From assembly GCA_015232555.1 (NCBI GenBank), contig JADFZJ010000017.1, positions 1 through 54,848 on the forward strand: DNA of 54,848 bases, in the 5' to 3' direction. The DNA comes from Desulfamplus sp. (lineage in GTDB: Bacteria > Desulfobacterota > Desulfobacteria > Desulfobacterales > Desulfobacteraceae). The translations under genes and the position numbers were made by a program. The notes beneath the pieces are model-generated. The model had not been told where the DNA came from. It was given only the letters and a program-made list of their open reading frames with translations, and ran no database searches. Positions within the stretch are counted from its first letter, which is position 1. Every line of letters begins with the position of its first letter. Positions 25,260-43,465 of the stretch are shown here, in pieces.

Positions 25260-26837
25260 TTAAATCATCAAACTCAATCCATGCTCTTCGGATTTTAGCA
25301 ATTCATTGATGATTGATTTTTCAGCCAACTTTTCAGGCTCAACCACACGGCACTCTATTCTGTGAACATTGTATTCATGAGTCTGTAGCCTCTCTTTGAG
25401 TTCTGGAAGCATAGAGTTGAAAAAATCGGCAGTCTCTTGATCAGCAACCTGAAATCCTCCAGTGATGTTGTTTTTAAGCACAGAAAAATCAGCTCTGACT
25501 GGTCCAAGATTGGTCATATCTAAGAAAAGAGAGACTTTAAGCAGAGAGTTCTCTTTTGAAGAGCCGTTTTCATCATCTTTATCTTTCTGCCCAAGATCAA
25601 TCAAAAGCTGACCAAAGCTGAATTGATCTCCGCTGAACAGAGGAAACGGAATTATATATTTGCCTGATTCTGAAAGATGGCTGTTGAGCAGTTGCACATT
25701 CTCAAGATTCTGGACAAATTCCTGAAATGAATGAATATCGTTTAAAGAGATTGATTCAGATGCTTCAAAACCTGAATTGGCTATAAAATTTAATACAGCT
25801 CCTTTTATATCTTCTTGAATAAAGGCGGCGGAATTAGCAGAAGAAGATTTAGTGGGAAAAGGTGCAATTTGGACAGAATTACTATTTTGGGGACTCTCGG
25901 TTGACTCAAATGATGATGAAGTTGAAGTCAAAAACGAAGTCGAAGTTGAAATTGAAGAAGATGATGATGATTGAAGTTTTTGAGAAATAGATTCAGATTT
26001 TTGTGATGTAGCTGAAAAATTTTTCATTTTTACTATATCTGCAAGTTTACTCTCCATCAAAATGCCGCTTTTTTGGAGCAATCGAGGTAAAAAATCAACT
26101 TCCACATTTTCTGACTTGAGTGCAACCGACATTAATAAATTTTTGATATCTGCTTTATCCATAAAAGGTTTATCTGTCGGAATCCGTTCTATTACATTTT
26201 TTAAAATTAATTTATCAGGCTGTAATGCTACTAAAGAATTTTTTGTAAGTTCAGAGGATTCTTTGGTTAAAACTGAAATCTCTTTTTTTGTAAGCTCAGA
26301 GGATTCTTTGGTTAAAACTAAAATCTCTTTTTTTGTAAGTTCAGGAGAGCCTTTAGTTAAAATTGAAATCTCTTTTTTTGTAAGCTCAGGGGATTCCTTG
26401 AGATTTGGAAAGAGTGCTGCTGCAAGTTTGGTAAATCCTTCAAAAGGTTGATTTTTTGCAAAAAACTGTAATGCAGAATCTGAAAGACGGGACAGGCTGC
26501 TATTAGGAACAGAGGTTGAGTGTATAACTCCTTGTGATATAACTTTTTCAGGTATTACCTTTAAAATATTCAGATGACCCTGATCCGTAACTTTAAGCTG
26601 AATAGTATCTCCTTTTGCTAAATTTGCTTTTGCCAAATTGGGAGATTCAGATGTGTCAGCAATAACTTTTTTACCTAAAATTAAAAGCTCTGCCTTTGAA
26701 GGGGATATCAATTTAAGCACTTTTGCATCAACAACCTGATTTTTTTCAAGAATGGGAAGAAGGGATTTTTTAAGAAGTGCCTCTGCATTATTCAATTTTA
26801 AGTCTGGTAAGGAGAGCATATTTTTTATCAAATTCAA
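25260..26837 (-). CDS. Second flagellar hook-length control-like protein (FliK2)
   Basis: This is a 525-residue protein from a TTG start at 26837, supported by GGAGA seven bases upstream; the ATG six codons later has no ribosome site. Residues 30-110 include a strand-rich region (VVDAKVLKLISPSKAELLILG). The middle is Ser/Thr-rich and holds a 15-residue repeat (ELTKKEISVLTKESS). The C-terminus (about 400-510) matches the FliK hook domain: LLKVSLFLDMTNLGPVRADF, then ADQETADFFNSMLPELKERLQ and VHRIECRV. It is distinct from the large FliK at 47116-49794. In related bacteria such proteins often pair with FlhX. Here FlhX is encoded about 6.9 kb further along the strand. Confidence 0.8.
   Translation of the reverse strand: MNLIKNMLSLPDLKLNNAEALLKKSLLPILEKNQVVDAKVLKLISPSKAELLILGKKVIADTSESPNLAKANLAKGDTIQLKVTDQGHLNILKVIPEKVISQGVIHSTSVPNSSLSRLSDSALQFFAKNQPFEGFTKLAAALFPNLKESPELTKKEISILTKGSPELTKKEILVLTKESSELTKKEISVLTKESSELTKNSLVALQPDKLILKNVIERIPTDKPFMDKADIKNLLMSVALKSENVEVDFLPRLLQKSGILMESKLADIVKMKNFSATSQKSESISQKLQSSSSSSISTSTSFLTSTSSSFESTESPQNSNSVQIAPFPTKSSSANSAAFIQEDIKGAVLNFIANSGFEASESISLNDIHSFQEFVQNLENVQLLNSHLSESGKYIIPFPLFSGDQFSFGQLLIDLGQKDKDDENGSSKENSLLKVSLFLDMTNLGPVRADFSVLKNNITGGFQVADQETADFFNSMLPELKERLQTHEYNVHRIECRVVEPEKLAEKSIINELLKSEEHGLSLMI
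26240..26405. repeat. 45-bp tandem repeat in fliK2
   Basis: Four copies begin with TTTGTAAG(T/C)TCAG at an exact 45-bp period (GTAAG at 26245, 26290, 26335 and 26380). They encode 15-residue units of the ELTKKEISVLTK type on the minus strand. Adjacent copies are nearly identical, so copy number may vary between strains. Confidence 0.85.
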
Positions 26838-26885: not shown

Positions 26886-27647
26886 CTATCTCTCCATTTG
26901 CATAAATTTCTCTTTCAGACTTATTACCAACTGCACCTCTCCTCGAGGCATGGAGAGTTTTGATGCAATAGTATCAACATCAAGCCCCTGCTGATAGAAC
27001 TCAACTATCTTCTGCTGCTGGTCAATCAGACTATTTTCTGATTCTTCCTGAGTTGAATCATCTACAGTTGACCATGCAGAATTATATAAACCTGAAGCAG
27101 CACCAGAACAGCGAATATCTCCGTCATTTCCAAGACCTTGAGCACTGTTGCGACTGTTGTTATTATTCTGGTTCTGACGGCGATTTGAGGCAGGTTGATG
27201 CTGATATATGGATTTGTCCTTGGAATTTAATATAACCTCTGATCTGGACAATAGAAGATTGATACTGATAATTCGTGAATCAAGTGTATCATTTAGGTTC
27301 TTGATAAGACGCTGCTTTTCCTTTATCTGATGCTCAAAAGATGCGGCGGTTGATTCCGAACCTTTAACTAACGGCTCAAGCAGTTCAATAATGTCCTGAG
27401 CCGCACGGTCAACCATCTCTACAGCCGCTTTTTCACCCATATTGTGGAGAAGTTGGTCTATTCTCTCTACTACTTCCTTATGAATTGAGTCAGTCACAGT
27501 CTTGATATCATCACGCTTAAAAGTGTTGTGCAGTTCAGCCTCTGTTTTTTTCATCCGTCTGATAAACCGCCACAAAAGCATCACAAGCACAAGATTGATA
27601 AAGAGTTGGGCAGCAATCCATAATTCCATGATAAGCAGTCTGCTCAT
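26886..27647 (-). CDS. DUF2802-type flagellar-locus membrane protein
   Basis: This is a 253-residue protein. The ATG at 27647 is preceded by GGGGAGG. A single N-terminal membrane helix (IAAQLFINLVLVMLLWRFI) is followed by a long predicted coiled coil (about 35-150) and an Asn/Gln-rich linker. The C-terminal short helix-turn-helix-like domain (IVEFYQQGLDVDTIASKLSMPRGEVQLVISL) is characteristic of DUF2802 proteins found in flagellar gene clusters. The exact function of this family is not established. It lies 30 bp after the cytochrome gene and 48 bp before fliK2. Confidence 0.7.
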   Translation of the reverse strand: MSRLLIMELWIAAQLFINLVLVMLLWRFIRRMKKTEAELHNTFKRDDIKTVTDSIHKEVVERIDQLLHNMGEKAAVEMVDRAAQDIIELLEPLVKGSESTAASFEHQIKEKQRLIKNLNDTLDSRIISINLLLSRSEVILNSKDKSIYQHQPASNRRQNQNNNNSRNSAQGLGNDGDIRCSGAASGLYNSAWSTVDDSTQEESENSLIDQQQKIVEFYQQGLDVDTIASKLSMPRGEVQLVISLKEKFMQMER

Positions 27648-27677: not shown

Positions 27678-29027
27678 CTATTTTGTAACAACCGCTTTAA
27701 CTTCCTTCATAACCACAACAGGAATATTCATGCCTTTCAGCTCTTTCATACTGTCTGCAACCTTTTGAGATAGTCCGCTATATAAAAGTGAAGCCTTAAC
27801 AGTTACGCTGCCATCAAAATTTCCAATATCGATGTTTTCAACATGCTCTTTCATAGGCTCAAGTCTTTTGTCACTTATTATCTCTCTTGCCTTGGCTAAG
27901 TTATCTACAGGATTACCTTTCCCATCACCAAAAATAGTAGAATAGATTATTGTATTTTCAGGCAGATATCCTTTTGCATCAGGGACACCTGATTTATATA
28001 TGACAGCTCCTTTGCTGTCTGTTACTGTAACGTTAAGCCATACCTGACGGATATTGGTCAATCCAGTGGGAATTTGATGTCCTGCTCCATTGTTTATTAT
28101 TTTGATAATAATCTTACTACCTTTACCCGATTTATCCATCTCTGCTTTAGGCTCTATTTTAATATCAACTGCATTTTTAAGTCTCTCTTCTGCCATTTGG
28201 GCAAGAGCCGTGTTTTGTTCTTTTATAGGAATTGCCATATTTGCACCAACAAAATAGTGAGTAAAGATATGTTCTCTCTCAACCGAGCCTTCAGCCGCTG
28301 TCCCTGGATTTTTGGGTCTATCTGTTGAGCCTGTAGATGGATATCCTGGTCTTTGATACATGTGGCAATCTTGACACTGAACACCCTGTTTACTGTAAGT
28401 GCTATTTTTCCATTCCTGATAAGTTGTTTCAAGCCATGTTTTAAAAGTTACATGCTGGACATCATGGCATGTTCCGCAAAGTTCTGATTTTGTATGAAAA
28501 TCTGAAAATTCAGATTGATGGTAATCTGACTCAGAGTCTTTAAATGGACCTCTTTTAACTCCAGGGTCATCCTCTCCATTTCCAGGAGCATATTTAAATT
28601 TTGCATTATAAACAGAGTATGCCCCTGTAATTGAGTGGCAGTAGTCGCACTGAACACCCTGCTTTGCTATTTCCGCAATTTTTGTTTTGTCATCAGATGT
28701 TTTCAGAGGATACCCTGTTATATATCCAACCGGAGTATGGCATGTCTGGCAATGCTCAGCCTCCTCAATCTCATCTTTGTCTGTAAGCCCGACAAGTCCT
28801 GCATTGGCAACACTGTTATAAATTACATCATCGTATGCAAGTTTGTGCATTGAGCCTTGCCACTGCTCATATATTTGTTCATGGCAACCTCCGCAAGTTT
28901 CAGGAGAGATAAATTGGGATAGTTGATAATGGGCAGTCTTTTCAGAAGACCATGAATTTGAATTTTCGTAAAAGAATATGTATAAAACAACTAATGCGGG
29001 GATAAGTATAATAGTAATGTTTTTCAC
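27678..29027 (-). CDS. Five-heme c-type cytochrome
   Basis: This protein is 449 residues from GTG at 29027, preferred because GAGGG lies about eight bases upstream. A TTG at 29066 would add 13 residues with a poorer ribosome site. An N-terminal helix (ITIILIPALVVLYIFFY) acts as signal or membrane anchor. Five CxxCH heme sites are present: CGGCH, CQTCH, CDYCH, CGTCH and CQDCH. The spacing recalls the multiheme c554-like family. The C-terminal half (about 290-440) is a beta-rich domain (GAGHQIPTGLTNIRQVWLNVTV) seen in such cytochromes. It is periplasmic electron transfer machinery, unexpectedly placed within flagellar accessory genes. Redox partners are unknown. Confidence 0.86.
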   Translation of the reverse strand: MKNITIILIPALVVLYIFFYENSNSWSSEKTAHYQLSQFISPETCGGCHEQIYEQWQGSMHKLAYDDVIYNSVANAGLVGLTDKDEIEEAEHCQTCHTPVGYITGYPLKTSDDKTKIAEIAKQGVQCDYCHSITGAYSVYNAKFKYAPGNGEDDPGVKRGPFKDSESDYHQSEFSDFHTKSELCGTCHDVQHVTFKTWLETTYQEWKNSTYSKQGVQCQDCHMYQRPGYPSTGSTDRPKNPGTAAEGSVEREHIFTHYFVGANMAIPIKEQNTALAQMAEERLKNAVDIKIEPKAEMDKSGKGSKIIIKIINNGAGHQIPTGLTNIRQVWLNVTVTDSKGAVIYKSGVPDAKGYLPENTIIYSTIFGDGKGNPVDNLAKAREIISDKRLEPMKEHVENIDIGNFDGSVTVKASLLYSGLSQKVADSMKELKGMNIPVVVMKEVKAVVTK

Positions 29028-29066
29028 AGTAAGAACCCTCAACTCCTTAAATTTAGATATTATCAA

Positions 29067-29369
29067 TCAAGCCACTGTATCAAGCAGATTACCTGGCAGA
29101 TCAGGATCATTTTTTCTGGTTCTATTTTGTGCCCTCTTTTTTTTAGCAAGCATCTTTTCCTCCTCTCTCTTTTTTGTCTTTGTATCAATATTTACACCGC
29201 TCGATTTTTCAGTAGAGATAACGGTTGTCTGTTCTATATTTTCCCTCATCATCTGCTGATTCTGCAGATCGGCAGGGTCTGGCTGAACAGGCTTGAGGTG
29301 GTGAGTTGCCTCATGGGCAAGGTTTGACTGCTGAATTACATGAGTATGTGCACCGGGTATTGTTGTCAT
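29067..29369 (-). CDS. Small hydrophilic protein of the flagellar locus, unknown function
   Basis: This is a 100-residue protein with ATG at 29369 and a very strong ribosome site, AGGAGGT, just upstream. It is His- and Gln-rich at the N-terminus (GAHTHVIQQSNLAHEATHHLKP) and highly charged in the middle (KTKKREEEKMLAKKKRAQNRTRKN). No membrane segment or known domain was recognised. It lies 36 bp downstream of the FliL-type gene. The strong ribosome site and operon position suggest an abundant protein working with the flagellum, but the function is unknown. Confidence 0.6.
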   Translation of the reverse strand: MTTIPGAHTHVIQQSNLAHEATHHLKPVQPDPADLQNQQMMRENIEQTTVISTEKSSGVNIDTKTKKREEEKMLAKKKRAQNRTRKNDPDLPGNLLDTVA

Positions 29370-29405: not shown

Positions 29406-31142
29406 TTAGCCTGTCTTAAAGTTTACAAACGAAACTTTGTTAAGTTTCATATCAGGCAATGCTTTATTTAATGCATCTTGAACAATCTCAAGAAGTGTAC
29501 TCTCAGTAAGTTTATTGCCTTTATCTGATTTCAATGCCGTGTTAATAGCATTGTATATTACATCTCTATAGTATGGAAGCCTGCTGTTGATGGTATCAAA
29601 CACAGTTGAATGAGAGTATTCAATTGAAACATCTACAGAGATATAAGTTATGCCATCATCTCTCTCAGGGGCAAACGCTATAAAATTTTCCAACGTAATG
29701 GTACCGGGTGTCAGCTCTTGCGATTCCTTAATATTCATATCTGGCACCTCTGTTGCTACAGACTCAGTCTCTCCTATTTTTCCGGCTGGTTGAGACGACA
29801 TAAGAAGATTATCCACCTTCTCCTTAAAAAACATAAAATATACACCAGCAACACAACCAGCCATTAAAGTTAGAACCAGCAGCAAAATAATAATAATTTT
29901 AAGAAGAAAATGTTTTTTTACAGGCTTCTCTTCTGACATATCAATAAGATCAGCAAGCTGCCTGACGGTGCCGTCTGCAAGTGTAGCAGCAGGAACAACC
30001 GATTCTTCAAGAATAACCTGTTCATTATCATCTTCAGGAAGAGAACTTTCAATGTTCTTAACAAGGACACTATTACCTTTAATATCCTCGTCCATCTCCA
30101 TGTCTGCTAAAATATCTTCGTCTTCTTCGTCTGTTCCTGCAAGAAGTGCATCAATATCATCTTGAGATATTACATTTCTTACACTATCGTCTGTGCCTGC
30201 TGCAGAAGTTTCTGCACCCTGAGCATCATTATCGTTTAATGCCAGATCATCATCTAAAGTATTATCTTCACTCTGTTTTAGGAAACCATCAATATCATCT
30301 TGGGAGATATCATTAAGAAGATCATCCATATCTCCAGCAGCATCGTTAAGCAGATCGTCCAGATCGCTGTCATTATTTTCAAGAGCAGAGTCAGTTTCAC
30401 CTTCAGATAGATTAACCTGAAAAACCTCGTCTGCTAAAGGGTCAGCTCTATTAAACGGCTCCTTATCTAATATATCGGCATCCTGAGCACTTTTATTCAG
30501 CAGATTGTCAATAGTATCCTGAGTAATCAGGCAGTCTTGTATATTCCACGCTTCAGATGGATCAATAACCTCTTCAGTAGATATAGAATCGGCAGTAACA
30601 CTTTCAACTATTTCATTATCTGGTGCTTCTATATCACTTTCAAGATCATCCATATCTGCAATGTTGTCTGGCTCTTCAGACATATCGTCAGTAGCCATCA
30701 GCTTGTCAATATCATCTTGAGATATCAGATCAAAGGCATCAGCATCATCTGTACTCTCTTTATTATAATTATTGGCAGAAGCATTACTCTGGTCATCTGC
30801 GGCAGGAGAGTTGAGCATTTTCTCAATATCATCTTGAGAAAGCTCTCCAAGATCATCGTCATCGTCATCATCTTCTTTAAACTCTTCTTTAAATTCGCTT
30901 GCCAAAGAAGCTGGTTCTTCTGGTTCATTAGAGTATAATGATGCGTTCAAAAGCCTGTCAATGTCGTCTTGGGAGAGTTCGCCTATAATATCACCTTCAT
31001 CTTTCTTATCTTCTGAAGGTGTAATGTCTTCCACATCTCCTTTATTGGCAATACTCTCTTCAGCCTCTTCAATGGACTGGGCATTTAGAAGTTTGTCAAT
31101 ATCGTCTTGGGAAAACAGGGTATCGTCATTGGGATCAGACAT
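29406..31142 (-). CDS. FliL-type protein with seven FliM-like CheY-binding motifs
   Basis: This is a 578-residue protein. Residues 1-400 are an acidic, low-complexity cytoplasmic tail with seven copies of a SQDDIDxLL-like motif, starting at residues 11, 57, 102, 141, 207, 280 and 326; the fifth reads TQDTIDNLL. Two shorter LDDLLND/MDDLLND copies lie at about 261 and 272. One membrane helix (about 412-438, LLKIIIILLLVLTLMAGCVAG) is followed by a periplasmic FliL-like domain (TLENFIAFAPERDDGITYISVDVSIEY, RDVIYNAINTAL). FliL surrounds and tunes the stator. The motif matches the FliM N-terminus encoded at 41752-42735 (ILSQDEVDSLLAG), the segment that binds CheY-P. Multivalent CheY binding is inference. 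It starts 11 bp after fliA. Confidence 0.82.
   Translation of the reverse strand: MSDPNDDTLFSQDDIDKLLNAQSIEEAEESIANKGDVEDITPSEDKKDEGDIIGELSQDDIDRLLNASLYSNEPEEPASLASEFKEEFKEDDDDDDDLGELSQDDIEKMLNSPAADDQSNASANNYNKESTDDADAFDLISQDDIDKLMATDDMSEEPDNIADMDDLESDIEAPDNEIVESVTADSISTEEVIDPSEAWNIQDCLITQDTIDNLLNKSAQDADILDKEPFNRADPLADEVFQVNLSEGETDSALENNDSDLDDLLNDAAGDMDDLLNDISQDDIDGFLKQSEDNTLDDDLALNDNDAQGAETSAAGTDDSVRNVISQDDIDALLAGTDEEDEDILADMEMDEDIKGNSVLVKNIESSLPEDDNEQVILEESVVPAATLADGTVRQLADLIDMSEEKPVKKHFLLKIIIILLLVLTLMAGCVAGVYFMFFKEKVDNLLMSSQPAGKIGETESVATEVPDMNIKESQELTPGTITLENFIAFAPERDDGITYISVDVSIEYSHSTVFDTINSRLPYYRDVIYNAINTALKSDKGNKLTESTLLEIVQDALNKALPDMKLNKVSFVNFKTG
30150..31115 (-). repeat. Array of seven dispersed SQDDIDxLL motifs
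   Basis: The motif copies begin, in minus-strand coordinates, near 31112, 30974, 30839, 30722, 30524, 30305 and 30167. The codons are also alike: the complement of TCAATATCATCTTGAGA recurs with few changes. Spacers are 39-73 residues long, acidic and unrelated to one another. The conserved unit is therefore the short motif itself, as expected for a linear binding peptide rather than for duplicated domains. Confidence 0.85.
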
Positions 31143-31153
31143 TTGAGAACCTT

Positions 31154-31897
31154 TTAAGCCTCAAAATGAGTTTTTAATTTCGACTTCAATTTATTTAAAA
31201 TCGAGGTGTGAATCTGGCAGATTCTTGATTCAGTAAGATTTAGAACCTCTCCTATCTCTTTGAGGGTCAACTCTTCATAATAGTATAGGGAAACAACAAG
31301 TTTCTCCTTCTCATTGAGCTTGTTTATTGCATCTGTAAGCAGAGATTTCATCTCCTCCCTTTCAAACTCTTCGGAAGGGGTCTCTTTAACTTTTAAATTC
31401 GATAGAAATCTTGTTGCAGAAGATGTTTCATTGTTTTTTGTTTTCAGGAATGTATCAATACTTAATATTGTCGCACCATGAATCTGGGTGAGAATATCGT
31501 TGTATTCATCTATAGTTACACCTAACTCTGCGGCAATATCTTCATCAGAAGGCATTTTCCCTGTGCTCTCTTCAAGTCGTTTTGTTGCAGCAGCAAGTTC
31601 CTGAATTTTTTTTCGGACAGATCGAGAATACCTATCCATGCTTCGGAGTTCATCAAGGATTGCACCTCTGATTCTGTATTGAGCATAGGTTTTCAAGGTG
31701 GTGTGTTTGTCAGGATCGAACTTATCAACAGCATCAATAAGACCTAATGAACCTGCACTGATAAGTTCATCAAACAGCACGCTTGACGGAATTTTGCGGG
31801 CAAATCCTAAAGCAATCTGTTTGACTAAAAATGCGTATTCAATAATTCTTGCTTCCCGCCACCCGGGGTCTTTGTGTTTAAGATCATCCTTTTTCAA
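31154..31897 (-). CDS. fliA: Flagellar sigma factor FliA (sigma-28)
   Basis: This 247-residue protein is the RNA polymerase sigma factor for late flagellar and chemotaxis genes. Region 2 is visible (EYAFLVKQIALGFARKIP, LISAGSLGLIDAVDKFD, TYAQYRIRGAILDELRSMD), region 3 follows, and region 4 ends in LTLKEIGEVLNLTESRICQIHTSIL. The best start is TTG at 31897; no ATG precedes region 2, and the resulting length is normal for the family. It comes 88 bp after flhG and 11 bp before the FliL-type gene, the usual flhA-flhF-flhG-fliA order. No anti-sigma FlgM and no clear sigma-28 promoter was found in the window. Confidence 0.95.
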   Translation of the reverse strand: MKKDDLKHKDPGWREARIIEYAFLVKQIALGFARKIPSSVLFDELISAGSLGLIDAVDKFDPDKHTTLKTYAQYRIRGAILDELRSMDRYSRSVRKKIQELAAATKRLEESTGKMPSDEDIAAELGVTIDEYNDILTQIHGATILSIDTFLKTKNNETSSATRFLSNLKVKETPSEEFEREEMKSLLTDAINKLNEKEKLVVSLYYYEELTLKEIGEVLNLTESRICQIHTSILNKLKSKLKTHFEA

Positions 31898-31985: not shown

Positions 31986-32897
31986 TCAATTAACTGCATC
32001 TAAAACTCTTTTCATAAAAAATTTGATATTGCCATCTGAAGATATCCTGATTGGCGACTCTGCTATCTTTAGGGCAATCTCTTTAATTGCCTGTGCTGAC
32101 GGGCAATCAGGTGCATAATCCATAACAGTGGTTCTATTTAAAACAGCCTTCTGAAGTTTTGGATCAGAAGGGATATTTCCAAGATATTCCAGCACCACAT
32201 TTTTCAAAAACCGCCCGAGAGCACTGTCAAGAGTTGCATAGACATTTTTGGCATCTTTTTTTGAATTTACCACATTGACTAACAGTTTAAAATACTTTGT
32301 TCCATATTCCTGAGACATTACCTTCATCAAGGCATAGGCATCTGTAATTGATGTTGGTTCTCGTGTTGCAATTACAATACACTCATCTGCTGCAGAATTA
32401 AAATACAAAACATTCGAGGAGATACCTGCACCAGTGTCAATCAGAATAATATCTGCCATATTTTCAAGAGTTTCGAACTCAGTCAGAAGATTGAGCTTTT
32501 CTCCGTGCGTCAACTGGGTCAAATTGGCAAACCCAGATCCTCCTGCAATTATATGAACACCATGATGAGTTTTGACCATAACTTCATGAAGTGTCCTCTC
32601 TCCGCTTATAACGTGACTGATATTATATTTTGGACGAAGGTTAAATATAATATCAATATTTGCAAGCCCGACATCTGCATCCACAATCACAACCCTTTTA
32701 CCAAGGGCATTGAGAGCAATAGCAAGATTTCCAACTATATTTGTTTTTCCAACTCCGCCTTTACCGCTCGTAACCGATATCACTCTTGGAACCCGCCGGC
32801 TGCCACCCAAAGAGACAGGGGAAGTTCTTCTTGATAAAGAATCTGTATTCACAATATTTCTTAACCCGCTTGCCTGATCCAATTTTTTATCTCCCAT
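31986..32897 (-). CDS. flhG: Flagellar number regulator FlhG (MinD-like ATPase)
   Basis: This is a 303-residue deviant-Walker ATPase (TSGKGGVGKTNIVGNLAIAL). ADVGLANIDIIF and the Asp in IILIDTGAGIS complete the active site. The short basic N-terminus with Gln (KLDQASGLRNIV) resembles the region of FlhG that stimulates the FlhF GTPase. FlhG limits flagellar number and placement with FlhF at the cytoplasmic membrane. In most related clusters flhG directly follows flhF; here a nuclease-like gene (32985-34556) lies between them. Confidence 0.93.
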   Translation of the reverse strand: MGDKKLDQASGLRNIVNTDSLSRRTSPVSLGGSRRVPRVISVTSGKGGVGKTNIVGNLAIALNALGKRVVIVDADVGLANIDIIFNLRPKYNISHVISGERTLHEVMVKTHHGVHIIAGGSGFANLTQLTHGEKLNLLTEFETLENMADIILIDTGAGISSNVLYFNSAADECIVIATREPTSITDAYALMKVMSQEYGTKYFKLLVNVVNSKKDAKNVYATLDSALGRFLKNVVLEYLGNIPSDPKLQKAVLNRTTVMDYAPDCPSAQAIKEIALKIAESPIRISSDGNIKFFMKRVLDAVN

Positions 32898-32984: not shown

Positions 32985-34556
32985 TTATGTTCGAGGTAAA
33001 GTCTCAACTTCAAACCCAACCACATTTCTCTCTTTTTTGGAGAACTCCACACCAATAAGATGAATCGGCAACCCTTCTGCTCTATATTTTTCAGCATAGT
33101 TTCTATTTTTAAGCTGCAAAATTGCACGTCCTTCCGGAAATAACTCAACCACCTTAAACTCAAACAGATAGATATTGTGGTTAAATTTTACTGTCATGTC
33201 AATTCGTCCGTGATTGGTAACATCTTCTAATCGAACATCAAGACCCAACGCTGCAAAATAGCTGTAAAAGATACTGGCATAATAGCCTTCATACTGTGCA
33301 ATCGGATTATTGTCATACCAGTGGTGAGGAATAGTTGCATAAAATGATTGAAACAGACCTTTAAGACCTTCTAAATCGTTAGCAGAAAGAAGCTGGTGTA
33401 GTCGATATATGTGATTTGATGGAGAGCTACTTTCAGGATTTAAGGCAAATAAAAGCTGTTCAGTAAGACCCATTCTAACCTCATGGTTTGGATACCTAAG
33501 ATGAAATATCTGCTTTGCACCTGTCCACTCCACATGGTCAATTGTCAGATAACCTGTCTGAAAAAGAAGGGCTTCGGTTGAAATATCGTTTACATCAAAC
33601 CGTGAAAGCAGATTTTCTATAGCCACAATATGCTCAAGAGCAGGAACAAACTGCTTTCGAGTTGTAAGAACTTTAATCAAAAACTCTGGAGTTCCAGTCT
33701 CAAACCAGAATGACCGAAAATCACGTTTCTGGAAAAGCAGCAACAGGTCAAACGGATTATAGACCGTTTCTCCAAGCCAATTATAACCGTTATACCAGTG
33801 ACGTATTTGTTCTTTTTCAATAGATACCAAAGCAAGAAGCTCTAACTCAGGGGCAAAAACAGTGTCAACCTCTTTTTGAGTGTAACCGCATATAGCTGAA
33901 TATGAAGCATCTACAGAAATATCACTAAGATTATTTATTCCTGAAAAAAGGCTAACCTTGCTAAATTTTGAGACTCCAGTAATAAAGCTGAAACGAATAT
34001 GTGCGTCCATATCTTTAATCACAGAGTAGAGATTTCTAAGACCTGTTCGCATGGCAATGGCAGTTGAACTGTCTGTTATATTATCAAGTATTGGTTTGTC
34101 GTATTCATCAACCAAAACAACAACACGACTGCCAAAGCTATCATGTGCATTGCGTATTAACTCACCAAAACAGCCAGCAACATCTTCAATATCCTGACAC
34201 TCAAGAGTAAGACGCTGTTGGTTAATACGCAGTAAATCACGGATACGACGATCAAGTTGTGCACGACTTTCTAAAACTCCGCCTCCAAAACTGATATGAA
34301 TTACAGGATTTGACTTGGTAAAATCCCATTTATCGTGAATATCAAGCCCTCTGAACAGCTCTTCTCTCCCCTCAAACAAATCTTTTAATGTGTCAAGAAA
34401 TAGACTTTTCCCAAAACGGCGAGGACGAGACAAAAAATAGTGTTTGCCCTCAGTTATAAGTCGATGGGCATAGGGGGTTTTATCAACATAGTAATAACCC
34501 TCTGTTATCATTTCAGAAAAGGTTTGAATTCCTATGGGTAATTTTTTCTTTATCAT
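32985..34556 (-). CDS. AAA-ATPase-like / PD-(D/E)XK nuclease protein (DUF1703 type)
   Basis: This is a 523-residue protein. The ATG at 34556 is preferred over a GTG at 34577 that would overlap flhF. The N-terminal AAA-like domain (about 1-280) begins with the family signature LPIGIQTFSEMITEGYYYVDKT and has a P-loop in FLSRPRRFGKSLFLDTL. The DEYDKPILD segment looks like Walker B. The C-terminal part has the PD-(D/E)XK pattern: GRIDMTVKF, then IYLFEFKVVE. These proteins occur as large, scattered families in Desulfobacterota and Bacteroidetes genomes, and their role is unknown. It interrupts flhF-flhG and looks like an insertion; a hairpin (GCAGC/GCTGC) abuts its stop. Confidence 0.87.
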   Translation of the reverse strand: MIKKKLPIGIQTFSEMITEGYYYVDKTPYAHRLITEGKHYFLSRPRRFGKSLFLDTLKDLFEGREELFRGLDIHDKWDFTKSNPVIHISFGGGVLESRAQLDRRIRDLLRINQQRLTLECQDIEDVAGCFGELIRNAHDSFGSRVVVLVDEYDKPILDNITDSSTAIAMRTGLRNLYSVIKDMDAHIRFSFITGVSKFSKVSLFSGINNLSDISVDASYSAICGYTQKEVDTVFAPELELLALVSIEKEQIRHWYNGYNWLGETVYNPFDLLLLFQKRDFRSFWFETGTPEFLIKVLTTRKQFVPALEHIVAIENLLSRFDVNDISTEALLFQTGYLTIDHVEWTGAKQIFHLRYPNHEVRMGLTEQLLFALNPESSSPSNHIYRLHQLLSANDLEGLKGLFQSFYATIPHHWYDNNPIAQYEGYYASIFYSYFAALGLDVRLEDVTNHGRIDMTVKFNHNIYLFEFKVVELFPEGRAILQLKNRNYAEKYRAEGLPIHLIGVEFSKKERNVVGFEVETLPRT

Positions 34557-34560
34557 TGCG

Positions 34561-35739
34561 TTATTTATCTCTCTCACTCTGCTCTGAACCTAACATGATA
34601 CTTAGAAGGTCTCTGGTATCAGGAATAATCAAATCTTCAGGTACTCTCTGCCCATTGGTAATAATAGATACTGGAAGCTGTAAATCATTTATCTGATCAA
34701 AAATTTTTCCACAGCGTCTTGTCTCATCAACTTTTGTAAACACGTAAGTTTCAGGGTTTAACCGTGAGAATGAGTTGACTACCTCCCTCATATCTAAAAA
34801 TCCAGTAGTAACACTCAAAACCAAATGAACCGAAATTTTGTAATCACTCCTGATAACCTCAGAAAACTCTCGCATTCTTACAGTGTCAGAGTGGCTGTGT
34901 CCCGCAGTATCAATGAGAACTACATCCATGCTCTCCATCTTTTTAAGGGCACGGATAAAATCTTCTTGATTAAAAGCAGCAATGCACAAAAGTCCCATGA
35001 TTGAAGCATAAGCCTTTAACTGCTCAAACGCACCAATACGGTAATTATCAATTGATATCAGCCCAACCCTTTTTTTCTTTTTGATGCTCAAATCTGCTGC
35101 AAGTTTTGCAATTGTAGTTGTCTTGCCAACGCCTGTAGGTCCAACAAATGCAGCTATATGGGGCATTCCTGAATCAAGCGGTCTTGCAAATACATCTCTC
35201 GTGTGGATATCTTTCATGCACTCTCTTATAACATATTTTTTTAGGGGCTGAACAATCCCTCTATGTCGGGATAGATCGCTATCCATTGCAATAGATGCAC
35301 GCTGCAAGATAAGATGTGACCGTTTCTCTGAGATTCCAGCACGAAGCAGGGAAGCCAAGATACCAGCAGACTCTGTGTGACTGCAAAGAATTGACTCCAT
35401 GCCGCTGCCAAACCCGACAAGTGATATTAAATCTTTGATATTGCTCAGTTCATCAATTATTGAAATATCAGAATTGGGATTCTCTCCGCCGTAAGCGTTG
35501 GAGGATAAACCGTTCAGAGGAGTAGAAAAGGGCTGAACAACATCAAGTTTCTCCTTTGTTCTTTCAACAGTATTTGGAGCAGCATCAACTTCAAACATAT
35601 CATCTGAGTATGGATCCCTTGGACTTTTGGGAATCCTACGGGTTGCAAGTATCATCGCATCAGATCCAAGTTCTTCTTTTATATCTGCTAATGCCTTCTG
35701 AATGCTTCGGGCTTTATATGTTTTGGTGTTAGTGCTCAT
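34561..35739 (-). CDS. flhF: Flagellar placement GTPase FlhF
   Basis: This is a 392-residue SRP-type GTPase. The N-terminal B domain (KTYKARSIQKALADIKEELGSDAMILATR) is followed by a variable linker. The NG domain has G1 AFVGPTGVGKTTTIAKLAA, G3 VVLIDTAGHSHSD and G4 TKVDE. FlhF marks the pole or site for flagellar assembly and is controlled by FlhG. Its ATG overlaps the end of flhA by 4 bp. The downstream neighbour is the nuclease-like gene rather than flhG. The family is confident. Confidence 0.95.
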   Translation of the reverse strand: MSTNTKTYKARSIQKALADIKEELGSDAMILATRRIPKSPRDPYSDDMFEVDAAPNTVERTKEKLDVVQPFSTPLNGLSSNAYGGENPNSDISIIDELSNIKDLISLVGFGSGMESILCSHTESAGILASLLRAGISEKRSHLILQRASIAMDSDLSRHRGIVQPLKKYVIRECMKDIHTRDVFARPLDSGMPHIAAFVGPTGVGKTTTIAKLAADLSIKKKKRVGLISIDNYRIGAFEQLKAYASIMGLLCIAAFNQEDFIRALKKMESMDVVLIDTAGHSHSDTVRMREFSEVIRSDYKISVHLVLSVTTGFLDMREVVNSFSRLNPETYVFTKVDETRRCGKIFDQINDLQLPVSIITNGQRVPEDLIIPDTRDLLSIMLGSEQSERDK

Positions 35740-41751: not shown

Positions 41752-42735
41752 CTATTTCAATTTCAATTTCTCTTCAACCCTGAAAGCTTGAAAGCCCCGT
41801 CTTACACCTGCATATCCCTTTATCTTTGGAAGATCGCCGACAAATCCTGTGAGCATCTCAATAGCATCGTGATCTAACTGGATTACATCCCCTTTCTGCA
41901 TCAGCCACAGACGCTCTCCTGTTATCTCAGTTGCACCCAACTCTATTCTAAGCTCAATTGTCGATTCTAATATAACCGATTCTAACATTTTTCTCCATGC
42001 AAGGTCTGTCTGTTCTATCTCTGCCTGAAATCCTGAGGCTAACTTTGTTCTTAATGGCTCTATCATGGAATATGGAAGACAGACAATCAAATTTCCTGCA
42101 ATCTGCTCAAGTTCAATTTCAAACCGTGTAACAATAACAAGATCAGTGGGAAGAACTATTGCTGCAAACTGAGGATTCATCTCTGATCTTACAAGTGAAG
42201 TTTTGATTACTTCAATGGGACTCCATGCAGTTTCGATATTTTTAAGACATGCTACAACCACCTTTTTTGTGGCAACCTCTTCAATTTTTGTGAACTCCCT
42301 TCCCTCAACCCTTGCCTTGCCTGAACCTTCGCCTCCGAAAAAAGTGTCTATTAGGTTATAGACAAGCTGGCTCTCAAGGATAACCAGTGCAAGTCCTCTC
42401 AATGGTTCCATTCTAAACACATGAAGACTTGTAGGAACAGGAAGGCTTCTGACAAACTCGGAAAATTTAAGTGTATCTAAAGGGTTAGCACTAACATCAA
42501 CATTGGTTTGAAGCAGCGTTGACATGCTTGCACGAAGTTCTCTTGCAAGACGCTCGTTAATAACATCAAAGGTGGGCATCCTTGCTCTGACAACTTTATC
42601 CTGACTTGAGAAATCATAAAGTGGAACGCCATCTTTTACAGGCGGGGCTTCCGCCTCTTTTTCCGCCTCAACTTCACCGGAATCAAGACCCGCGAGCAGA
42701 CTGTCAACTTCATCCTGGGATAGTATTTCACTCAT
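41752..42735 (-). CDS. fliM: Flagellar motor switch protein FliM
   Basis: This is a 327-residue protein. The N-terminal peptide ILSQDEVDSLLAGLDSG is the CheY-P binding segment. The middle CheC-like domain (about 45-235) has the LASFLRTNV-equivalent STLLQTNVDVSANPL and the GGEGSG loop (FFGGEGSGKARVEGREFT). The C-terminal SpoA domain is ESTIELRIELGATEITGERL. FliM links CheY-P to the C-ring and so to rotational switching. A hairpin (CTTTTGG/CCAAAAG, 42765-42784) lies between fliL and fliM. This single CheY motif is a useful comparator for the seven-copy array in the FliL-type protein. Confidence 0.96.
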   Translation of the reverse strand: MSEILSQDEVDSLLAGLDSGEVEAEKEAEAPPVKDGVPLYDFSSQDKVVRARMPTFDVINERLARELRASMSTLLQTNVDVSANPLDTLKFSEFVRSLPVPTSLHVFRMEPLRGLALVILESQLVYNLIDTFFGGEGSGKARVEGREFTKIEEVATKKVVVACLKNIETAWSPIEVIKTSLVRSEMNPQFAAIVLPTDLVIVTRFEIELEQIAGNLIVCLPYSMIEPLRTKLASGFQAEIEQTDLAWRKMLESVILESTIELRIELGATEITGERLWLMQKGDVIQLDHDAIEMLTGFVGDLPKIKGYAGVRRGFQAFRVEEKLKLK

Positions 42736-42832: not shown

Positions 42833-43465
42833 TTACTGTAACCAAAAATTGGTAAAATAGATATTTTTTACCATCCTTGAAGGCAATGCTTTGTTCAACT
42901 CTTGAATCAGCCTGTATTTAAAGTTGATTTTACCTTCAGGAGTTCTTAACAAAAGCCATGTCATTTTTTTTATTTCGGATTCAACTGTCTGCCTGATTTT
43001 TTCGCTATTAGATTCAATATCTTTTCGCATCTCAGGCTTTATTAGTTCAACTGAAATTTTAAGTGTAAGATAATTTAAACCTTCGCTCTCCTGCAACTTA
43101 ATTTTCTTAAATACTTCCAAATATACAATATCAGGAAAATCAGGCTCAGGCGGAGGAAGAGAAATCGGCTTTCCATCTTTATCGACTGCCCCTGCCACTT
43201 CCGCTGTTTTAGCACTCTCCTCTATTTTAGCAGATTCACCAGTATCAGTATTGTTTGGTTTTAGAAAAAAGAACCAGCCTGCAAATAAAGCTCCAGCAAT
43301 AATAACAATCAAAATAAAAAATATAACCATAAACTTCAAACTGAATATTCGTTTGAAAAATGATTTTTTTACTGGCTCTACATCAGATTGGTTATCTTTT
43401 TTAGATTTATCTGATATTGTCTCATCCTTAGCAGTGCTTTTATCTTTTTTCTTAAACTTAAACAA
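42833..43465 (-). CDS. fliL: Flagellar stator-associated protein FliL
   Basis: This is a 210-residue protein. The TTG start at 43465 is supported by AAAGGAG seven bases upstream. A basic cytoplasmic tail (FKFKKKDKS) precedes one membrane helix (LKFMVIFFILIVIIAGALFAGWFFF). The periplasmic domain (about 110-210) has DIVYLEVFKKIKLQESEGLNYLTLKISVEL and LIQELNKALPSRMVKNIYFTNFWLQ. FliL surrounds the stator and supports motor torque. This is the conventional copy; the second FliL-type protein at 29406-31142 has a much longer tail. Confidence 0.93.
   Translation of the reverse strand: MFKFKKKDKSTAKDETISDKSKKDNQSDVEPVKKSFFKRIFSLKFMVIFFILIVIIAGALFAGWFFFLKPNNTDTGESAKIEESAKTAEVAGAVDKDGKPISLPPPEPDFPDIVYLEVFKKIKLQESEGLNYLTLKISVELIKPEMRKDIESNSEKIRQTVESEIKKMTWLLLRTPEGKINFKYRLIQELNKALPSRMVKNIYFTNFWLQ

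Follow-up and report, generated by a model that had tools for sequence, protein, structure and literature searches.

A stretch of 54,848 nt from Desulfamplus sp. contig JADFZJ010000017.1 (hereafter the window), part of a 3.8-Mb genome that is 96% complete, carries on its reverse strand, where all window genes mentioned below also lie, an open reading frame (ORF) of 578 residues (29406..31142). Its product, here named FliL2-array, is a FliL paralogue with seven motifs of the FliM N-terminal type in its cytoplasmic tail. Multi-motif FliL2 proteins are a real and conserved feature of flagellated Desulfobacterales, and the tail motifs are probably docking sites for the phosphorylated flagellar CheY (CheY-P), to judge from sequence comparisons. 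By the common view, CheY-P acts on the motor chiefly via the FliM N-terminal peptide. What is new here is a known FliL combined with a known docking peptide in a multivalent arrangement, likely a multivalent CheY-docking scaffold. An earlier note on this DNA knew of no described system of this kind. Neither a FliL with CheY-docking repeats nor a direct stator-CheY-P tether of such kind was found among the papers listed by searches of the open-access literature (PubMed Central), and the strings SQDDID and SQDEID did not occur among the open-access literature matches listed.

The motif array and the FliL-like domain

The tail of FliL2-array comprises 404 residues, 32% of them aspartate or glutamate, and is predicted to be disordered. 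Its motifs are SQDDIDKLL (residues 11-19, 31086..31112), SQDDIDRLL (57-65, 30948..30974), SQDDIEKML (102-110, 30813..30839), SQDDIDKLM (141-149, 30696..30722), TQDTIDNLL (207-215, 30498..30524), SQDDIDGFL (280-288, 30279..30305) and SQDDIDALL (326-334, 30141..30167), and the distance from motif to motif ranges from 39 to 73 residues. In the AlphaFold2 (AF2) model a short helix is predicted at each of the seven (residues 12-21, 58-67, 103-110, 142-149, 208-220, 281-289 and 327-335, respectively). The copies share the core Hydrophobic-[ST]Q-x-[DE]-[IVL]-[DE]-x-[LM]-[LM], except for T at the fourth place in copy 5 and F at the eighth in copy 6. A conserved context of the SEA..(V/I)..CLITQ type precedes copy 5, and a conserved acidic stretch of the DEEDEDIL type follows copy 7. 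The FliM of the window (41752..42735, identified by family match) has a single N-terminal motif, SQDEVDSLL (42694-42720). Both numbers, seven and one, had been given in the earlier note and are borne out, even though its pattern SQ[DE][DE][IV][DE]xx[LM] catches six copies and misses TQDTIDNLL.

When the tail was shuffled 20,000 times, motif matches averaged 0.00025 with a maximum of 1. Compared with six close homologues from the same genus (L009-L014), the window protein is 94% identical in the motif columns, 46% in the spacers and 71% in the FliL domain, and the motif is therefore the part kept by selection, as had been proposed from the unrelated spacers. The shuffles and the difference in conservation between motifs and spacers together rule out chance or composition as the origin of the motifs.

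The tail is followed by a single membrane helix, predicted within a long helix at residues 410-448 (29799..29915), and by a FliL/SPFH-like domain at residues 480-577 (29412..29705), which is expected to be periplasmic; this architecture is based on AF2 models and Foldseek/VIA matches, the membrane side being presumed. Stomatin/SPFH, prohibitin and unrelated folds rank below FliL in the fold-match lists, and profile comparison (hhalign) of canonical FliL with the array family gave 99.0% at E 2.5e-18. Nine of 34 array-family members have a match of their own to PF03748 at E ≤ 0.01. The Pfam scan of the whole window protein returned no match at E ≤ 1, and the curated NCBIfam cut-off for FliL was not reached (27.9 bits vs. 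187 required, E 1.6e-6); the protein is therefore termed a divergent FliL paralogue and not canonical FliL. Thus, the membrane helix and FliL-like periplasmic domain read from the sequence earlier are supported by fold and profile, with the qualification that the domain is divergent and falls below curated cut-offs. FliL2-array is not a misplaced canonical FliL, since a separate canonical fliL (210 residues, 42833..43465) adjoins fliM in the same genome.

Of the 58 genomes searched, 36 were found to carry arrays, with 2-14 motifs each; they represent seven family-level groups within the order Desulfobacterales. Thirty-four of the arrays were recovered by protein query, the own genome included, and two (G035 and G043) by reading the slot; the array of G043 runs off the contig end ahead of the FliL domain. 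A FliM match is present in 35 of the 36, the exception (G019) being 81% complete, and no array was found in six FliM-bearing genomes (G006, which is 52% complete, G027, G042, G046, G048 and G050). In addition, at least 37 array loci, each with at least two motifs (range two to thirteen by regular expression), were confirmed in a named collection; this count is biased, as the scan patterns contained the motif, and a protein search and a motif-free domain profile were used as an offset. These loci are titled Desulfamplus, Desulfobacter, Desulfobacula, Desulfotignum, Desulfospira, Desulfobotulus and others, a few only Proteobacteria or Deltaproteobacteria. Two of the arrays (L033 and L050) contain eight near-identical tandem SQDDIDGLM units, the array growing by unit duplication.

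The partner of the motifs

We take the FliM-binding face of CheY to be alpha4-beta5-alpha5 and assume an offset of one residue between E. coli CheY chain numbering and residue numbering. In E. coli CheY, the binding of FliM involves A90, K92, I95, A99, Y106, V108, K119 and K122 (PMC8225110), and at these positions the flagellar CheY of the relatives has A, K, V, V, Y, V, K and K in all 29 readable loci of 30 (the partial L227 was left out, and two of the 29, G006 and G014, are from incomplete genomes in which no array was found). CheY K119 pairs with FliM Asp12 (PMC7012829), and 232 of 268 array motifs have D at the corresponding position. All 268 have a hydrophobic residue ahead of S/T, a place left free by the search pattern.

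Gene order also connects FliL2 to CheY. A second, longer FliL located after fliA in other lineages is here called motif-free FliL2; profile comparison with the array family gave 99.4%, and the motif is absent from all seven such proteins translated. The domain profile without motifs matched 82 of 247 phylum genomes, many of the matches being canonical fliL beside fliM. Sixteen motif-free loci were chosen among the profile matches by frame length and are not a census (L153 is from the window's own order); a flagellar CheY orthologue, 60-69% identical to that of the window genome, lies directly upstream of FliL2 in 12 of them, the exceptions being L153, L159, L203 and L204. For ten of the sixteen, picked by frame length before the neighbours were seen, the figure is eight. 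Four further loci were dropped because no neighbour genes were found (L212, L213) or because the gene was canonical fliL next to fliM (L214, L215), and L144 was counted neither way. L207 has cheY and FliL2 with no fliA in the stretch examined. The cheY-fliL2 gene pair thus seems old, and the array lineage seems to have cheY elsewhere and to have gained docking motifs. In the window genome the flagellar cheY follows cheX, in a stretch also holding flgC, fliE, fliF and fliG. At L144 (6091-7323, reverse strand; same order) a receiver-TPR fusion occupies the place of cheY, with fliA on one side and the gene for a short Pfam FliL protein on the other.

The third line of evidence is motif number. 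The own flagellar CheY was searched for in the 58 genomes at E ≤ 1e-30; at this threshold it was not found in four array genomes (G013, G022, G025 and G033), and the copy in G036 carries in-frame stops. These five genomes have 2, 4, 4, 3 and 2 motifs, respectively, and the other 31 have a median of 7 (range 3-14). The Mann-Whitney test of motif number against CheY gave P 6e-4, or 1.2e-3 with a stricter motif pattern, both values ignoring ancestry. On the FliL-domain tree (35 rows, G043 left out) the five CheY-less genomes need five separate changes. A CheA match is absent in G013, G025 and G036, while G022 has two and G033 three. All five retain FlhG, and four, G025 being the exception, have a Flagellin_N match; the array gene of G033 is broken by a frame change. 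The N-terminal motif of FliM is kept in all five as well; its retention in genomes in which no intact flagellar CheY was found, and in three of which CheA is not matched either, hints at another partner of the FliM peptide, such as FlhG.

Besides the disregard of ancestry in the statistics, a number of observations weigh against flagellar CheY-P as the ligand. The CheA-less genomes retain two to four motifs and not zero, which might reflect a second partner or slow decay. Nor does the link hold strictly: only three motifs are present in G012 despite its CheY, compared with four in its CheY-less sister G022. In comparisons with the nearest relative the CheY-less genome has the lower number in four cases of five, one of the comparisons (G036 with G054) being a weakly supported long-branch pair. 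G013 and G022 are only 80% and 90% complete, and the flagellar locus of G025 (L064) looks generally decayed, with only a piece of flhA and no fliA found. Of the 268 array motifs, 235 have D as their fourth residue and 248 have I as their fifth, whereas the 30 FliMs of the clade that were read all have E and V; an origin of the array as a copy of the own FliM peptide is disfavoured by this consistent difference. In the array loci, the place between fliA and the array was not seen to hold cheY. Finally, at least 155 receiver matches are present in the genome, and the receiver in question might be another one.

Among the rival explanations the strongest is an anchor for the MinD-like ATPase FlhG, which the motifs would bind and retain at completed motors, either to count flagella or to steer C-ring assembly. 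FlhG also binds the FliM N-terminus (PMC12826062), flhG (MinD/ParA-type ATPase, 31986..32897) is conserved two genes upstream of the array gene in relatives, and FlhG persists in the five CheY-less array genomes, as do some array motifs and the FliM motif; binding to FlhG could explain both the remaining two to four motifs and the retention of the FliM motif there. We nevertheless regard it as unlikely: motif-free FliL2 also lies beside fliA and flhG, so nearness to flhG does not predict motifs, and motif number is low where CheY is gone although FlhG remains, and CheY-P is therefore favoured over FlhG as the ligand. The earlier note had chosen the same partner, and this choice is still preferred; FlhG it had overlooked.

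Alternatively, the motifs might recruit CheY-like proteins besides flagellar CheY, linking c-di-GMP (cyclic di-GMP) or other signals to the stator. There is a precedent in CleD of Caulobacter, which binds FliM through its CheY-binding motif (PMC7534056), about twenty of the receiver matches in the window genome are in short single-domain frames, and the array motif is systematically unlike that of FliM. However, synteny and the loss pattern point to flagellar CheY, and with flagellar CheY as the query no receiver was found in the available flanks of 35 of the 37 array loci listed, those of the other two being several kb away; on balance this explanation appears quite unlikely. A structural tether, with the motifs contacting one another or components of the motor (FliG, FliM, FliN, MotA) and influencing how the stator assembles without carrying a signal, is improbable. 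The topology would place the tail at the C ring, and the conserved pre-membrane QVxLEE and the DEEDEDIL-type elements suggest additional contacts, but the motif resembles the FliM signal peptide and not a structural interface known to us, its number co-varies with CheY, and the uneven spacing in the window protein argues against a fixed scaffold. Repeat drift, the functionless expansion of an unstable coding repeat, for which the tandem units of L033 might speak, is highly improbable given that the spacers are unrelated while the motifs are kept in the window protein and its close relatives, and that arrays recur in seven family-level groups.

Gene neighbourhood and other occurrences of the motif

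Where the contigs reach, the order of the array loci is flhA-flhF-flhG-fliA-array-DUF2802-fliK-like, often with a small protein after the array gene. Among the matches listed, fliA is upstream in 34 of 37 loci; L049 and L069 begin too late to tell, and L064 shows none. In the window, fliA (sigma-70 family, 31154..31897, supported by synteny) precedes the array gene with an 11-bp gap. Directly downstream is a gene for a protein of approximately 100 residues (29067..29369), which has no family match over the cut-off and recurs in many relatives, and the DUF6115/DUF2802-type protein (26886..27647, family match and synteny) is a conserved downstream neighbour. A cytochrome c554-type ORF (27678-29066) lies inside the flagellar cluster, as it does in L039 and L041; it was not found in L038. 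Direct repeats of the type ELTKKEISVLTKESS occur in frame within the FliK-type ORF (Flg_hook, 25260-26837). The genes flhF and flhG, which are immediate or near neighbours in most relatives, are separated in the window genome by an AAA-ATPase_like/PDDEXK_9 ORF of 530 residues (32985-34577), which overlaps the end of flhF.

The strict pattern Q[DE][DE][IV][DE]x[LF][LF] matched only the array ORF (4) and FliM (1) in the 3.8-Mb genome, with 0 matches in the control. With a looser pattern there were 28 matches vs. 11 in the reversed control, seven of the 28 being in the array ORF and one in FliM. Of the looser matches, C22:2620 (L075) is inside a GGDEF-type protein (by eye) and has L rather than S/T before Q, and over C34:3895 (L076) no ORF of at least 60 residues is listed on that strand. 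Across the phylum the strict form QDDIDx[LF][LF], which would miss variants such as that of G035, matched in 31 of 297 genomes, and clustered matches occurred only in G000 and G054, both in array genes. The concern that the motif might be general in unrelated proteins is thus not borne out in the own genome with the strict pattern, but single copies do exist on zinc-ribbon proteins elsewhere in the phylum: double-zinc-ribbon proteins in other bacterial families (L255, L256, L257, L258 and L259) end in one C-terminal SQDDIDALF/SLF motif. The single QDDIDxL at the zinc-ribbon C-termini in these five loci suggests that the FliM-type peptide is portable. By eye, the sequence upstream of it in the five loci resembles, in another frame, a response regulator-GGDEF gene. 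The motif AQDDIDALL was seen at the N-terminus of short proteins in L253 (1438-1827) and L254, the former with no Pfam or NCBIfam match at E ≤ 0.1.

Proposed function and comparison with known systems

Serine and threonine N-cap helices, and each motif would form an N-capped amphipathic helix once bound, most likely on the alpha4-beta5-alpha5 face of phosphorylated flagellar CheY, as the FliM N-terminus does. Rings of FliL surround stator units (PMC10127578), and the FliL domain of FliL2 is expected in such a ring. In Desulfobacterales the FliL2 tail would have grown to approximately 400 disordered acidic residues with several FliM-type docking peptides, and every FliL2 ring would keep CheY-P concentrated as a cloud next to MotA and the C ring. 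This cloud might serve as a local reservoir or buffer which raises or smooths the supply of CheY-P to FliM, and a second input to torque through FliL is conceivable. It is possible, if tentative, that by holding many CheY-P at the torque generators the rings let the chemotactic signal act on the stator (speed, braking, load response) besides the FliM switch; evolution would then have set the sensitivity through motif number. In E. coli, the recruitment of stators favours the binding of CheY-P to the motor (PMC8440544), and a link between stator and CheY-P is therefore physiologically plausible. The earlier note had proposed that the protein recruits several CheY-P molecules to the stator as a second control of speed or direction; of this, the part with the best support is that a FliL-fold protein carries a CheY-type docking array, considering cheY synteny, motif number and the invariant CheY face, while speed or direction control and the location beside MotA we infer. 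Similarly, we infer binding, its phosphorylation dependence, the location and the motor effect of FliL2-array, and the output could be that of a reservoir, buffer, brake or speed control.

If true, a CheY-docking FliL2 would give the signal a new point of entry into the motor and would be a natural example of valency tuned by evolution. Motif number varies about sevenfold between related species, which makes dose-response comparisons possible without construction. The role of FliL is itself under debate, and its N-terminal region has been proposed to restrain the motor (PMC10127578); for this region the array family offers an obvious candidate ligand.

Motif-free FliL2 shares with FliL2-array the slot after fliA, the FliL domain and a cytoplasmic extension, and differs in having no motif, in the cheY directly upstream in 12 of 16 loci and in a majority consensus with a KVELDLDDAPxL element. 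This conserved cytoplasmic element, common to the motif-free FliL2 of L159, L164, L168 and A7, is possibly a docking site of its own. The polar landmarks HubP and FimV are membrane-tethered cytoplasmic scaffolds linked to flagella, acidic and rich in repeats; the likeness is one of general description, and no FimV/HubP family appeared in the general Pfam or NCBIfam scans. With FliL itself (PF03748; Vibrio 6AHP/6AHQ, H. pylori 7SGN) FliL2-array has in common a predicted single membrane helix and an SPFH-like domain, but differs by approximately 400 cytoplasmic residues with the motif array, compared with 2-28 cytoplasmic residues in eight surveyed species (PMC10127578), and by the presence of a canonical fliL in the same genome. 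The N-terminal CheY-binding peptide of FliM (EIDAL motif) is similar in the core Hydrophobic-[ST]-Q-x-[DE]-[IVL]-D-x-L-[LM], the helix prediction and the Asp that pairs with CheY Lys119, whereas the array has many copies per chain, which are internal, located on a stator-side protein and D-I instead of E-V at positions 4-5. Finally, as with the Cle proteins of Caulobacter at FliM, where a FliM-type motif is used by several CheY-like proteins (PMC7534056), one type of peptide would serve as the docking site; in Caulobacter the diversity is in the receivers, whereas FliL2-array multiplies the docking site.
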